Part shown: in pieces, positions 4,066 through 21,233 of the stretch
Position numbering within the stretch: position 1 is the stretch's first letter
How the letters are laid out: every line of letters starts with the position of its first letter
Origin: a virus
IMG/VR virus record: IMGVR_UViG_3300007541_000197
Location: 1-25,176 of that record
Strand: one strand, 5' to 3'
Length of the DNA: 25,176 nt
Program-made: the position numbers and the translations under genes
Notes under the pieces: generated by a model
Told to the model about the DNA's origin: nothing
Database searches by the model: none
The model's input: the letters and a program-made list of their open reading frames with translations, nothing else

Positions 4066-4331
4066 GTGTGCTGGAGAGGGCGCGCAACTTCCTGTCTGGC
4101 CGACAACGGGCCTACAAGCTGACGTTTGGCGGCGTGGCCGGGGACACTGTATTGCAGGACTTAGCCCAATTTTGTAGAGCACACGAATCATGTTTCCACC
4201 CTGACGCTCGCGCATCGGCGCTGATGGAGGGGAGGCGTGAAGTATGGTTGAGGATCAAGGAGCATCTTGATCTAACAGAAGAGCAACTGACTGAGTTGCA
4301 TATTCCACAACAAAGGAAGATACAGAAATGA
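4062..4331 (+). CDS. Bbp19-like phage protein
   Basis: An 89-residue protein resembling Bbp19 of Bordetella phage BPP-1 and similar small proteins found between portal and scaffold genes. The recognisable core is LAQFCRAHESCFHPDARAS followed by LMEGRREVWLRIKEHLDL. It is charged and helical, with no membrane segment. Its biochemical role is not known to me; position implies a part in head or connector assembly. It overlaps the portal stop by 4 nt and the next start by 4 nt, so translation is probably coupled. Confidence 0.8.
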   Translation: MSVLERARNFLSGRQRAYKLTFGGVAGDTVLQDLAQFCRAHESCFHPDARASALMEGRREVWLRIKEHLDLTEEQLTELHIPQQRKIQK

Positions 4332-5191
4332 GTGAAGAAGCAATCACCTCCGGTGAGACCGGGGACGGTGGTGCCAATACTGGTGCCGCAAGTGTAGATA
4401 CGGGTACCAGCGATCAATCGTGGTACGCAGGGTTCGATGAAGATACCCAAGGCTGGATGGAGAATCGGGGTCTAACTAAGCTGGACCCAACGGCAGCCCT
4501 TGAGAACGCTGTCAAAGGTTTCCGTAACGCAGAGAAATACGTGGGCACCCCCCACGAAAAACTGTTAACCCTGCCTGACTTCGACAAGGCGGATAAAGTA
4601 GAACTGGATCAGTTCTACACCAAGCTGGGACGGCCTTCGGATGCTAATGGGTACGAACTGCAGGTGCCAGAGGGTCAACCCACTGAGTTTGCGGATTTTG
4701 CTAAAACCATGTTCCACGAGGCGGGTTTAACGGATCGACAAGCGAAGGTTATTAACGAGAAGTGGAATGACTACGTTGCCGGTCAGGGTGAGTCACAGGT
4801 TGAGCAGTACCAGGAGAACCTGAAACAGCAGGATGCTGCGCTTCGGAAGGAGTGGGGGGAAGCCTACGATGATCAGATCGACAAGGCTAAATCCGCTGCC
4901 CGTGAGTTCGGGTTACAGGAGAACCAGATTGACGCTATGGAGAAGGCCCTGGGGTTCGATGGTCTAATGAAGTTCATGTCGAATATTGGTTCCAAACTGG
5001 GTGAAGACACCTTCATTACAGGCGGAAACAGTAATGGTGACTTTAACGGTAAGCTCACCCCAGCAGGTGCTCAGGCTCGGATCAAGCAGCTTCAGGGTGA
5101 CAAGGATTGGTCGTCAAAATACATTGCTGGAAACATCGAAGCCCGTGCTGAGATGGAGAAACTGATGAAGGCTGCATACCCCGATGTCTGA
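4328..5191 (+). CDS. Putative scaffolding protein
   Basis: A 287-residue acidic, Gln/Glu/Lys-rich protein directly before the small basic gene and the capsid gene, where podovirus scaffolds are found. It has a disordered acidic N-terminus (residues 1-30), a motif WYAGFDEDTQGWMENRG at about 36-52, a LGRPSDANGYEL segment, and a long coiled-coil-like helix with repeated Gln/Glu at about 150-190. The C-terminal region contains ARIKQLQGDKDW. Proteins with the GWxENRG and LGRPxxxxGY elements are commonly annotated as phage scaffold or capsid assembly proteins. Scaffold would coat the inside of the prohead and leave before packaging. Confidence 0.75.
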   Translation: MSEEAITSGETGDGGANTGAASVDTGTSDQSWYAGFDEDTQGWMENRGLTKLDPTAALENAVKGFRNAEKYVGTPHEKLLTLPDFDKADKVELDQFYTKLGRPSDANGYELQVPEGQPTEFADFAKTMFHEAGLTDRQAKVINEKWNDYVAGQGESQVEQYQENLKQQDAALRKEWGEAYDDQIDKAKSAAREFGLQENQIDAMEKALGFDGLMKFMSNIGSKLGEDTFITGGNSNGDFNGKLTPAGAQARIKQLQGDKDWSSKYIAGNIEARAEMEKLMKAAYPDV

Positions 5192-18725: not shown

Positions 18726-18891
18726 AGCGAGACACCTCCTCCCGTAGTTTCCTGATAATCCGGCTCGACTCTTCCACTATTGCCTCGAACGCACGTAGTT
18801 GTAGCTGCTGTTCCTGATACAATTTAGCCCAATAATAGGGGTCTGTCTCCATTGCTTCTGCGATCTCATCTATTGTGTATTCGTCCATCAT
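18679..18891 (-). CDS. Small hypothetical helical protein
   Basis: A 70-residue acidic helical protein that starts MMDEYTIDEIAEAMETD, continues with YYWAKLYQEQQLQLRAFEAI and ends with a charged helix SSRIIRKLREEVSRYDQ. It has no membrane segment or signal peptide. A good aaggag lies 5 nt before the first ATG (18891) and 8 nt before the second (18888); either could be used. The gene overlaps the helicase stop, so translation is probably coupled. No family is recognised. Confidence 0.65.
   Translation of the reverse strand: MMDEYTIDEIAEAMETDPYYWAKLYQEQQLQLRAFEAIVEESSRIIRKLREEVSRYDQSATCRNSVSNVH
18735..18742 (-). promoter_or_regulatory. Shine-Dalgarno sequence of the small lipoprotein gene
   Basis: ggaggagg on the minus strand, lying 9 nt before the ATG at 18725 and inside the coding sequence of the upstream 70-residue protein. 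It is one of the best ribosome-binding sites in the window and supports the lipoprotein ORF as real. Confidence 0.6.
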
Positions 18892-21233
18892 CCGTTCTCC
18901 TTCATCTGTCGATACTTCTTAAGTGCATTACGGAGAGAGGTCTGACTCTCATCTTTTTCTTCCAGGGACATCGCTTGCGCTTGGTCGAGGGTATTCTCCA
19001 TCAGTATCCTATGGCAGATCGCTGGCACCCCGAGGCCTTGTCTACGAATACGAGCTATAAACTGCAGGTACAGATCCAGTGACCAGATCAAGCCGAACCA
19101 TACGAGGATGTGTCCGTTCTTCTGTAATCCGTCAACACCATGCCCCATACTATTGTGGGAAATAAACACCTCCCCTTCGGTGTTCCTGATTAGGAACCTG
19201 TGCCGTGGACCGCAGTTCACGAGGTCGTAGACATGCGCCTTTCTCGTCGTTTCATATTCTTCGGATCTCGACTCTTCCCGTAAGGCGACCTCTCGCAATC
19301 CGCTACCGCTTCGTCCCCGGTCATACCACGATTCAATCTCATGATTAACATCATCTTGCTGAACCCGCTCCGTCTGACCAATTCCGCGAGATGTATCCTT
19401 TCCCCTTGGTAAGTGACTACTCGATTGTTCCTCTTGTTTGACTGCTGATCGAACATTGAAACCCAAGTGCAGTTCTCCTTGCAGTAAGGACCATTCACGT
19501 TGATTCTCTCGATGGTTAGATCGTCCGAATATCCTTCCGACATATCGGTGTAGAAGTTCTCGAATACCTCCCATTCTGGGCAGACTGCGATCCCACGTCC
19601 CCCGTAGTTGCGGGACTCCTTCTCGGTCCTTGGATTGTTGCACCTCTCCCTCATACCCCTCCATATCCGGTAGATACGAGTGTGGGTCATCTGGTGCCAA
19701 TTCTCCCCCACGCAGAATCGACAGTGACTCCGGTTTTCCCGGTTGTGCTTTACATAGTTTTGGTGAAGCATGATCTGACCGGTCTGACATTTTAGACACA
19801 CAACCGATGCCTGTGTACGGTATTTTCCCCCGGTAAATCGCTTCTCCGGCAGTTTTCTTATTAGTTCTAGCATGCTGCCCCTCCACCCATTCGTTATTGA
19901 TCAATATCTTGTGGTCAGGGGTCATCGTAATACCGAACACGTTGATGACCTCCTTGTAACCGGAATAACTGCAACCATCGTGGGATACAAATTCAACCCC
20001 ATCGAACACATGATCGTCGCGGTCAACGTCAACAATTCTGACCCATCCATTCCGTTTTGTCAATACTTGGGTGTCCGGGTGGAGACACGCCGGGTGACCT
20101 ATCATCAGGGCGCAGTCATCATTCTTCCACCGGGACATTGCGTTGTTCAGGGCAGTCTCTGATTTGCAGTCGGTCAGGTTGATCGGGCGGAGATGTTTAA
20201 ACCGTTCCATGATACGCTCTGCATCTGCCCGGTATGAGTAGGCACACAACACAGGGGACCCCCCGGCCTCCTCGATGATGTCCTCCAGGGCATCCAGCTT
20301 CAGGTCATGTATGTGTTCCCACTTCGGGATGCCGGGGATCGGGTAGACAAACCCGTTCGAGAATTGAAGGCATTTATTCGTCAGGGATGCCTTATTGAAC
20401 ACCTCCACGTCGGTTCCGTTATCAAGCTGGAAGAAGAAGTCCTTCTCTAACTCCTCATATTTCCGCCGCAACCCTTGAGGCATATCAACCCGAATGTCAT
20501 TCACTATGAGGTCGGGCAGCGGGTTGTAATCCTCCGCTGACATCTGCATCGTGATGTCACCGATTAACGCCTTAATGGTATCCTCGGTGTCCGGGAATGC
20601 TTCGTACTTGTAGGCTGACTTCTTGTAGTAGAACCGTTCGGTGAAGGCAGTCTTACTGGTACCCAGTCGGACACCTTGGTCTAATACCAAGTACTGCCCA
20701 TGAAGATCCTTGTACCCGTTGGCAGCCGGGGTACCTGTGAGACCGGTAGTCCAGTCGAATGCAGGTAGGATCTTTCGGAAGGCGGATACCCGCTTCGTGG
20801 TGCTGTTCTTCATTTTCGAGATTTCATCCCACACCACCCCGTTGAACGGGATCGGGCGATCCTTCTTGATATAGTAGGTGATTAGCGTGTCAGCGAGCCA
20901 CTTCAGATTTTCATAATTGATAAGGTATACATCAGCCTTCTGCATCAGAGCACGGGTGCGTTGGTCTTTGCTACCTGACACCATTGCAAACTTCAGATGC
21001 TTGGTGTGTGACCACTTCAGAGCCTCCTGACGCCACACGAGTCGGATCACGCGGATCGGGGCCACGATAAGGACTCCACGCAGAAACCCGGCATTCAGCA
21101 GATGGGCGATGCTGGTGAGGGTGATCGCGGTCTTTCCCAGACCCATGTCGGCCCATACCGCAGAGTGAGGGTGTGTGGACTGGAAGTTGGATGCCTTCTT
21201 TTGGTAGTCGTGAAGCTGATCAGGATTTAGCAC
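18888..21233 (-). CDS. SNF2-type DNA helicase precursor with intein
   Basis: A 781-residue precursor. The extein is a superfamily 2 helicase of 469 residues, as found in phage replication modules. Walker A is ADMGLGKT (residues 28-35), motif Ia is LIVAPIRV, the DEAD-like motif II is VVWDEISKMKN (133-143) and motif III is TGLTGTPA (163-170). Motif V is split by the intein at HPA|C, resuming N|SMGHGVDGLQ. The final motif VI lies in LQFIARIRRQG. The intein covers residues 383-694 and the +1 residue is Ser695. The start codon is GTG, supported by ggggag 6 nt upstream; it overlaps the VRR-NUC gene by 7 nt. Splicing is required for a continuous motif V, so an unspliced protein should be inactive. 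Confidence 0.94.
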   Translation of the reverse strand: MLNPDQLHDYQKKASNFQSTHPHSAVWADMGLGKTAITLTSIAHLLNAGFLRGVLIVAPIRVIRLVWRQEALKWSHTKHLKFAMVSGSKDQRTRALMQKADVYLINYENLKWLADTLITYYIKKDRPIPFNGVVWDEISKMKNSTTKRVSAFRKILPAFDWTTGLTGTPAANGYKDLHGQYLVLDQGVRLGTSKTAFTERFYYKKSAYKYEAFPDTEDTIKALIGDITMQMSAEDYNPLPDLIVNDIRVDMPQGLRRKYEELEKDFFFQLDNGTDVEVFNKASLTNKCLQFSNGFVYPIPGIPKWEHIHDLKLDALEDIIEEAGGSPVLCAYSYRADAERIMERFKHLRPINLTDCKSETALNNAMSRWKNDDCALMIGHPACLHPDTQVLTKRNGWVRIVDVDRDDHVFDGVEFVSHDGCSYSGYKEVINVFGITMTPDHKILINNEWVEGQHARTNKKTAGEAIYRGKIPYTGIGCVSKMSDRSDHASPKLCKAQPGKPESLSILRGGELAPDDPHSYLPDMEGYEGEVQQSKDREGVPQLRGTWDRSLPRMGGIRELLHRYVGRIFGRSNHRENQREWSLLQGELHLGFNVRSAVKQEEQSSSHLPRGKDTSRGIGQTERVQQDDVNHEIESWYDRGRSGSGLREVALREESRSEEYETTRKAHVYDLVNCGPRHRFLIRNTEGEVFISHNSMGHGVDGLQKNGHILVWFGLIWSLDLYLQFIARIRRQGLGVPAICHRILMENTLDQAQAMSLEEKDESQTSLRNALKKYRQMKENG
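19217..19873 (-). CDS. HNH-type homing endonuclease nested out of frame inside the intein
   Basis: A 218-residue protein wholly inside the intein coding sequence, same strand, +1 frame. The N-terminal zinc ribbon has CLKC (Cys26, Cys29) and CRFC (Cys51, Cys54). The nuclease core contains IWRGMRERCNNP (70-81), NYGGRGIAVCPEWEVFENFY (89-108), LTIERINVNG (119-128) and CKENCTWV (131-138), then QQSNKRNN. This matches the phage HNH/beta-beta-alpha-metal family with the usual pattern LTIxRIxxNGxYxxxNCxW. A C-terminal helix-turn-helix-like segment (162-190, LAELVRRSGFSKMMLIMRLN) would bind DNA. The ORF starts just after splicing block B and ends inside block F. It has its own Shine-Dalgarno sequence, so it is probably made as a separate protein. 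All motifs are intact, with no frameshift visible. Confidence 0.9.
   Translation of the reverse strand: MLELIRKLPEKRFTGGKYRTQASVVCLKCQTGQIMLHQNYVKHNRENRSHCRFCVGENWHQMTHTRIYRIWRGMRERCNNPRTEKESRNYGGRGIAVCPEWEVFENFYTDMSEGYSDDLTIERINVNGPYCKENCTWVSMFDQQSNKRNNRVVTYQGERIHLAELVRRSGFSKMMLIMRLNRGMTGDEAVADCERSPYGKSRDPKNMKRRERRMSTTS
19878..19884 (-). promoter_or_regulatory. Internal Shine-Dalgarno sequence for the nested endonuclease
   Basis: ggagggg on the minus strand. Its ggagg core ends 6 nt before the ATG at 19873. It lies within intein codons for W-V-E-G just after block B. It decides the endonuclease start and is the evidence for translation independent of the helicase frame. Confidence 0.75.

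Follow-up and report, generated by a model that had tools for sequence, protein, structure and literature searches.

A phage helicase intein with an HNH-family endonuclease gene nested in an overlapping reading frame

Closest described systems

In canonical large inteins, such as PI-SceI and the LAGLIDADG inteins, the endonuclease lies in frame and is part of the excised intein. In fractured genes, reportedly recognised by Dassa in 2009 (cited in PMC10448857), a free-standing endonuclease is said to be situated between the two halves of a split intein. The element described here, found in the SNF2-type helicase gene of a phage, bears similarities to both. As in canonical large inteins, a splicing domain and a putative homing endonuclease make up what would be one mobile unit at a conserved site of the host gene; unlike in those inteins, the endonuclease would be a separate polypeptide encoded in another frame, with the in-frame linker serving as filler. 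As in fractured genes, a gene for a free-standing homing-type endonuclease lies between two intein halves, but the host gene, which in fractured genes is broken in two, is in the present case one continuous ORF overlapping the endonuclease gene (a split form, L153, is described below).

Published phage insertions show other combinations of these features. Cyanophage CL131 possesses an in-frame HNH_3 intein (PMC6293099), and the closest parallels with respect to frame usage are the ShiLan domain and the Pacc40 gp60 insertion, where out-of-frame (‘hidden’) HNH genes reside in phage methylase genes (Arsenault, Gosselin and Gogarten 2025; PMC11855218). The methylase of phage Applejack also contains an out-of-frame HNH gene, and no splicing motifs are given for the HNH site (PMC12613952). 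ShiLan and the present element have in common an HNH gene in another frame of a stop-free, in-frame insertion into a phage gene, a patchy distribution and a proposed separate translation (PMC11855218). In the ShiLan and Pacc40 gp60 insertions, however, no intein splicing blocks are detectable, and the inserted segment is presumed to remain in the protein (PMC11855218), whereas the HNH gene of the present element is enclosed by a complete splicing domain and occupies the +1 frame (many polymerase inteins have theirs in +2). A literature search by frame wording, with most subscription papers outside its reach, found only ShiLan-type reports; the union of an intein with an out-of-frame HNH gene appears to be undescribed, both halves being already known.

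The interrupted helicase gene and its intein

The window, i.e. the whole stretch of 25,176 bases that was analysed and that constitutes the virus record, encodes a terminase, a head-tail adaptor, a major head protein, a polymerase, an ssDNA-binding protein and an exonuclease, and its virus is therefore a tailed phage. Elsewhere in the window, a mirror-image pair of 184-aa ORFs (82-636 on the minus strand and 89-643 on the plus strand) spans glycine/threonine-repeat sequence; the plus-strand ORF resembles a repetitive protein upstream of the terminase, and its minus-strand partner is probably spurious. The helicase gene is a single 781-codon ORF, uninterrupted by stops throughout, in which 312 codons belong to the intein (Table 1).

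Table 1. Window coordinates of the helicase gene, its intein and the nested endonuclease gene
Feature	Position	Strand	Details
SNF2-type phage helicase gene with intein	18888..21233	-	781-aa precursor; PF00176 E=9e-16, phrog_62 E=8e-115
Helicase N-extein	20088-21233	-	part of the 781-aa precursor ORF
Helicase C-extein	18888-19151	-	part of the 781-aa precursor ORF
Intein, 312 codons, in helicase frame	19152..20087	-	Cys1 ... HisAsn, then Ser+1; helicase residues 383-694
N-terminal splicing half, blocks A and B	19812..20087	-	intein residues 1-92; pLDDT above 90; Foldseek matches to mini-inteins
Intein linker	19254..19811	-	residues 93-278; predicted disordered, near-neutral, stop-free; endonuclease core encoded by the same DNA
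C-terminal splicing half, blocks F and G	19152..19253	-	intein residues 279-312
Nested HNH-family endonuclease gene, +1 frame, 218 aa	19217..19873	-	ATG 19873; TAG 19217 inside block F
GGAGG Shine-Dalgarno-like sequence	19880..19884	-	6 nt upstream of nested ATG; within intein codons W-V-E-G
Zinc-ribbon-like cysteines of nested enzyme	19712..19798	-	C26-x2-C29 ... C51-x2-C54
Beta-beta-alpha core of nested enzyme	19439..19519	-	residues 119-145; predicted secondary structure; likely catalytic (putative assignment)
HTH-like helical tail of nested enzyme	19289..19399	-	residues 159-195; probable DNA-binding part (putative function)

What could be the purpose of coding twice over the same DNA? We consider it highly probable that the element is a mobile intein performing two jobs in two overlapping frames, namely splicing in the helicase frame and homing by a free HNH endonuclease encoded in the +1 frame. 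In the helicase frame, a mini-intein composed of blocks A, B, F and G would excise itself from the helicase precursor and so render the insertion harmless, while its linker of roughly 190 residues would be a passive filler with the sole requirement of containing no stop codons. In the +1 frame, internal initiation would produce a free-standing endonuclease of the HNH family, which would cut inteinless helicase motif V genes in co-infecting phages, and the repair following cleavage would copy the whole element into the empty site.

The splicing part of this proposal begins with the junctions, HPA/CLHPDTQ... and ...FISHN/SMGHG (the slash marks the boundary), both of which fall within SNF2 motif V. 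Intein residues C1, T56/H59 and H311-N312 are invariant across 32 sequences and Ser+1 is present. The intein with in-frame blocks A, B, F and G that an earlier note had read from the DNA is confirmed, down to the exact coordinates. In the AlphaFold (AF2) model of the intein frame, the splicing ends reach pLDDT values >90 and linker residues 93-278 stay <50; its top Foldseek matches are the DnaX, DnaB and gp41-1 mini-inteins (probability 1.00, E from 2e-3), so that the HINT fold is recognised by the placement of the modelled ends on solved mini-inteins. The modest E values are probably a consequence of the disordered linker. At the level of sequence profiles, TIGR01445 gives a weak match to the intein N-terminus that falls short of the cut-off (E 0.0035), a PDB sequence search with the intein profile returned no match, and the linker frame matches no family, the endonuclease being absent from the intein's own frame.

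Could the insertion instead be of the ShiLan type, i.e. an HNH gene placed into a host gene whose in-frame product stays unspliced? The published methylase cases provide a precedent for this out-of-frame arrangement (PMC11855218), but blocks A, B, F and G are invariant here, with Cys1, His-Asn and Ser+1, the high-confidence ends match mini-inteins, the insertion sits in a conserved helicase motif, and exactly the splicing blocks are retained in HNH-less derivatives (see below), all of which makes an unspliced product very unlikely.

The nested gene, its conservation and selection

The nested ATG is positioned just past block B, and the third frame across the middle of the intein contains many stops. 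As the earlier note had claimed, the +1 frame encodes within the intein a 218-residue protein, which matches phrog_3377 ‘HNH endonuclease’ with E=2e-47 and four more endonuclease PHROGs below 1e-17. Its AlphaFold model has a mean pLDDT of 86.8 and resembles viral HNH endonucleases in structure comparison; sequence and fold searches of the PDB found no solved relative, and a Pfam search gave no match. Among the motifs predicted beforehand, the zinc-ribbon cysteines (C26, C29, C51 and C54 of the CxxC...CxxC pattern) are conserved and the tail is helical and HTH-like, but the HNH-like core calls for one correction: the classical His-Asn-His triad is not conserved and not present as such (LTIERIxVN...N134C...Q143QxN146K), with a beta-beta-alpha fold predicted, Asn134 invariant and a first strand without His. 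Because of this, the HNH family label and the presumed nuclease chemistry rest on homology.

The layout is not confined to the window. A scan of viral contigs with a two-sequence HNH alignment returned only L004, which has a helicase 42% identical, an HNH protein 55% identical and the same layout. Intein-based scans of viral contigs brought the number of non-identical inteins at the helicase site to 32, comprising four deletion derivatives and 28 distinct full-length inteins, all 28 of which share the nested-ORF layout that the earlier note had suggested seeking in homologues, in helicases down to about 29% identity. A first scan of bacterial genome contigs found no relative of the helicase intein, nor did a search of plasmids. 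L022 and L038 each have a further intein C-block (at 4016-4374 in L022) with an HNH match in another frame, situated some 4 kb upstream of the helicase intein on the same contig.

A start codon (ATG or GTG) is found at intein nt 215 in all helicase-site homologues, and T is the last base of the intein codon contributing to it in 34/34 sequences (exteins use T in 35%; product about 1e-18). About half of the helicase-site inteins also have GGAGG 6 nt upstream of this start; the choice of Glu codon in it does not exceed extein usage (19/27 vs 17.3 expected, p=0.55), and the ribosome-binding site may therefore be a by-product of the W-V-E-A motif. It is conceivable that the HNH protein is produced by ribosomal frameshifting, fused behind the N-terminal intein half, rather than by internal initiation. 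Such a mechanism would suit the +2 class of polymerase inteins, many of which offer no candidate start other than an NTG made up with a conserved Trp codon (NNN-TGG), this triplet being CTG in Jerseyviruses, and whose HNH frame runs open from roughly nt 90 of the intein onwards. In the helicase class, by contrast, the start codon is retained in every case and the HNH frame is shut a few codons upstream of it in some members (for example L019, from nt 205), which makes frameshifting unlikely.

The two frames differ markedly in what selection maintains. When the HNH codons of the window were resampled synonymously according to their own usage, 12.3 intein-frame stops were expected and 0 were observed, a value that 0/4000 resamples reached; over 19 inteins, 0 stops contrast with an expectation ranging from 196 under their own codon usage to 231 under that of the exteins, in a test that took inteins with a complete frame from sets found by intein similarity, so that broken inteins are under-sampled. 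One broken case is known at the helicase site (L020, in which a single indel shifts both frames), and eight HNH relatives outside these inteins, found in the first HNH scan, have 4-29 stops in the same register. In pairwise counts for overlapping genes, made on one close cluster and three diverged pairs, the HNH frame has a dNN/dNS of 0.05-0.20, i.e. strong purifying selection, and the linker frame a dNN/dSN of 0.28-1.02, i.e. nearly free drift. From the low ratio of the former and the near-neutral ratio of the latter, it follows that the endonuclease is maintained as a sequence and the linker only as an open frame. The nested ORF is neither a product of chance nor a sequencing error. The earlier note had called for such a comparison of both frames and had reasoned that homologues with a stop-filled or unselected +1 frame would speak against it; in the homologues analysed here the frame is open, its start is conserved and it is under purifying selection. 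As far as coding sequence can tell, its central claim that one DNA stretch specifies both a splicing linker and a free-standing homing-type endonuclease is thus borne out, with both frames conserved and the HNH frame selected.

These results bear on three further explanations. If the HNH frame were a dead or fortuitous ORF in a large intein of which only the intein frame counts, a missing classical triad would be unsurprising, but purifying selection falling on the HNH frame and not on the linker contradicts this, as do the HNH PHROG matches in 19/19 homologous members tested, the conserved start codon and the well-folded model; we regard it as highly improbable. If the element were a group I intron in which the HNH gene is intron-encoded, it would agree with the label ‘type I self-splicing intron’ that the depositors of SO-1 gave to a related polymerase insertion; yet introns need no open frame while stops are strictly avoided here, the intein blocks are conserved, and no Rfam intron is present in the window or in nine relatives, so that an intron is extremely improbable. 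As a candidate class, the group I intron with an HNH ORF was rejected, there being no Rfam match and no recognisable intron RNA structure. Finally, sequencing or assembly frameshifts might have displaced an originally in-frame endonuclease, and L020, L109 and L127 do carry broken frames or an ambiguous base; but fixed frame offsets common to >90 distinct inteins, from independent assemblies as well as isolate genomes, contradict this and render it scarcely conceivable.

Empty sites, polymerase relatives and meaning

Inteinless alleles, which the earlier note had recommended looking for in related phage helicases, exist: 80 helicases, 73-76% identical to that of the window, have an empty site, on a list that is biased to empty sites (an insertion splits the match) and from which no frequency can be read. 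The closest of these alleles, L182, is the sister and nearest relative of the window helicase. Average identity is 64% for intein blocks vs 43% for exteins, the blocks being also more constrained. HNH and helicase distances are correlated (rho 0.72), and occupied or empty status needs only 3 changes on the tree; judged from these sequences, the helicase intein is likely mobile, with neither recency nor frequency of movement implied by the two values. The enzyme can also be lost. L067 shares 95% identity with the full-length L076 at the sites that can be aligned, has a 438-nt in-frame deletion within the HNH core and is a natural mini-intein derivative, and L018, L035 and L037 carry additional in-frame HNH deletions with the intein frame and splicing blocks retained. 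Survival of the splicing part without the enzyme is as expected if the splicing part alone protects the helicase.

How general is this arrangement? Polymerase-type inteins from isolates (Sodalis phage SO-1, Salmonella VT223 and Ent1, Escherichia AV129, EBPR siphovirus 2, Vibrio 97.13, Streptococcus Javan113, Caulobacter GB2A, APSE-1 and APSE-2), together with 80 viral contigs, were sorted by HNH profiles and then dereplicated. The resulting 66 complete-frame inteins, mostly from DNA polymerase genes (one, L163, is the helicase intein L015 again), are divided between HNH genes in +1 (33) and in +2 (33), frame 0 holding none; they show 0 intein-frame stops vs about 423 expected, and 893 stops in the third frame. 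Scanning bacterial genome assemblies with polymerase-type inteins yielded 14 loci, 12 of which have an HNH gene, always out of frame; in L109, the HNH gene is in frame only after a frameshift. The earlier note had believed the arrangement to be rare, but it is widespread by the measure of these sequences, as the out-of-frame HNH gene is the sole HNH arrangement among >90 related, distinct inteins, in sets gathered by similarity to this kind that say nothing on inteins at large.

Two members had been annotated as nested ORFs in polymerase inteins and belong to the same class by HNH-profile scan: SO-1 gp39 within gp38, labelled a group I intron endonuclease, and APSE-1 P46 within P45, an ORF without assigned function; neither was read as the nested HNH gene of an intein. 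P46 (L094:2931-3353) occupies the +1 frame of the P45 polymerase intein, inside the HNH-matching frame. In the Salmonella Jerseyvirus polymerase inteins L046 and L096, the +2 HNH frame has no ATG, GTG or TTG near block B, and a CTG within CTGG is aligned there. L098, L112, L115, L269 and L271 are mini-inteins of 135-158 aa with no HNH match, some of them at sites with nested-HNH relatives.

A broken form is seen in L153 (L153:2150-5192, "AN INTERMEDIATE"), where the polymerase N-half and N-intein end at 4270, the HNH frame is open over 4237-4890, and a further ORF, beginning at 4887, encodes the C-intein together with the polymerase C-half, its ATGA being shared with the HNH stop. This is the layout of a fractured gene, likely with a split intein derived from the overlapping form, and it suggests a route from the latter to split inteins. 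Taking a wider view, we lean, with considerable reserve, towards the idea that phage inteins with an out-of-frame HNH gene form a large, undescribed ‘entangled’ class, in which the overlap would guard the endonuclease from frameshift decay and allow its expression independently of the host protein, and which would have arisen at least twice (+1 and +2). On this view, in-frame deletion would turn members of the class into mini-inteins, and a break in the intein frame, of the kind seen in L153, would leave split inteins accompanied by free endonucleases.

In such elements, the two defining activities of a mobile intein would be separated into two overlapping genes, and the Jerseyviruses and Dhillonviruses are cultured isolate phages in which this separation can be tested. 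Many phage inteins recorded as lacking an endonuclease may carry one in another frame. The comparison also touches on the ShiLan puzzle of how an out-of-frame HNH gene can spread without harm to its host gene, since here protein splicing would restore the host gene. The overlapping form is a natural example of a sequence entangled with a conserved host gene; it is relevant to the question of how homing endonucleases avoid decay, and it would provide a path along which split inteins with a free-standing endonuclease could arise.
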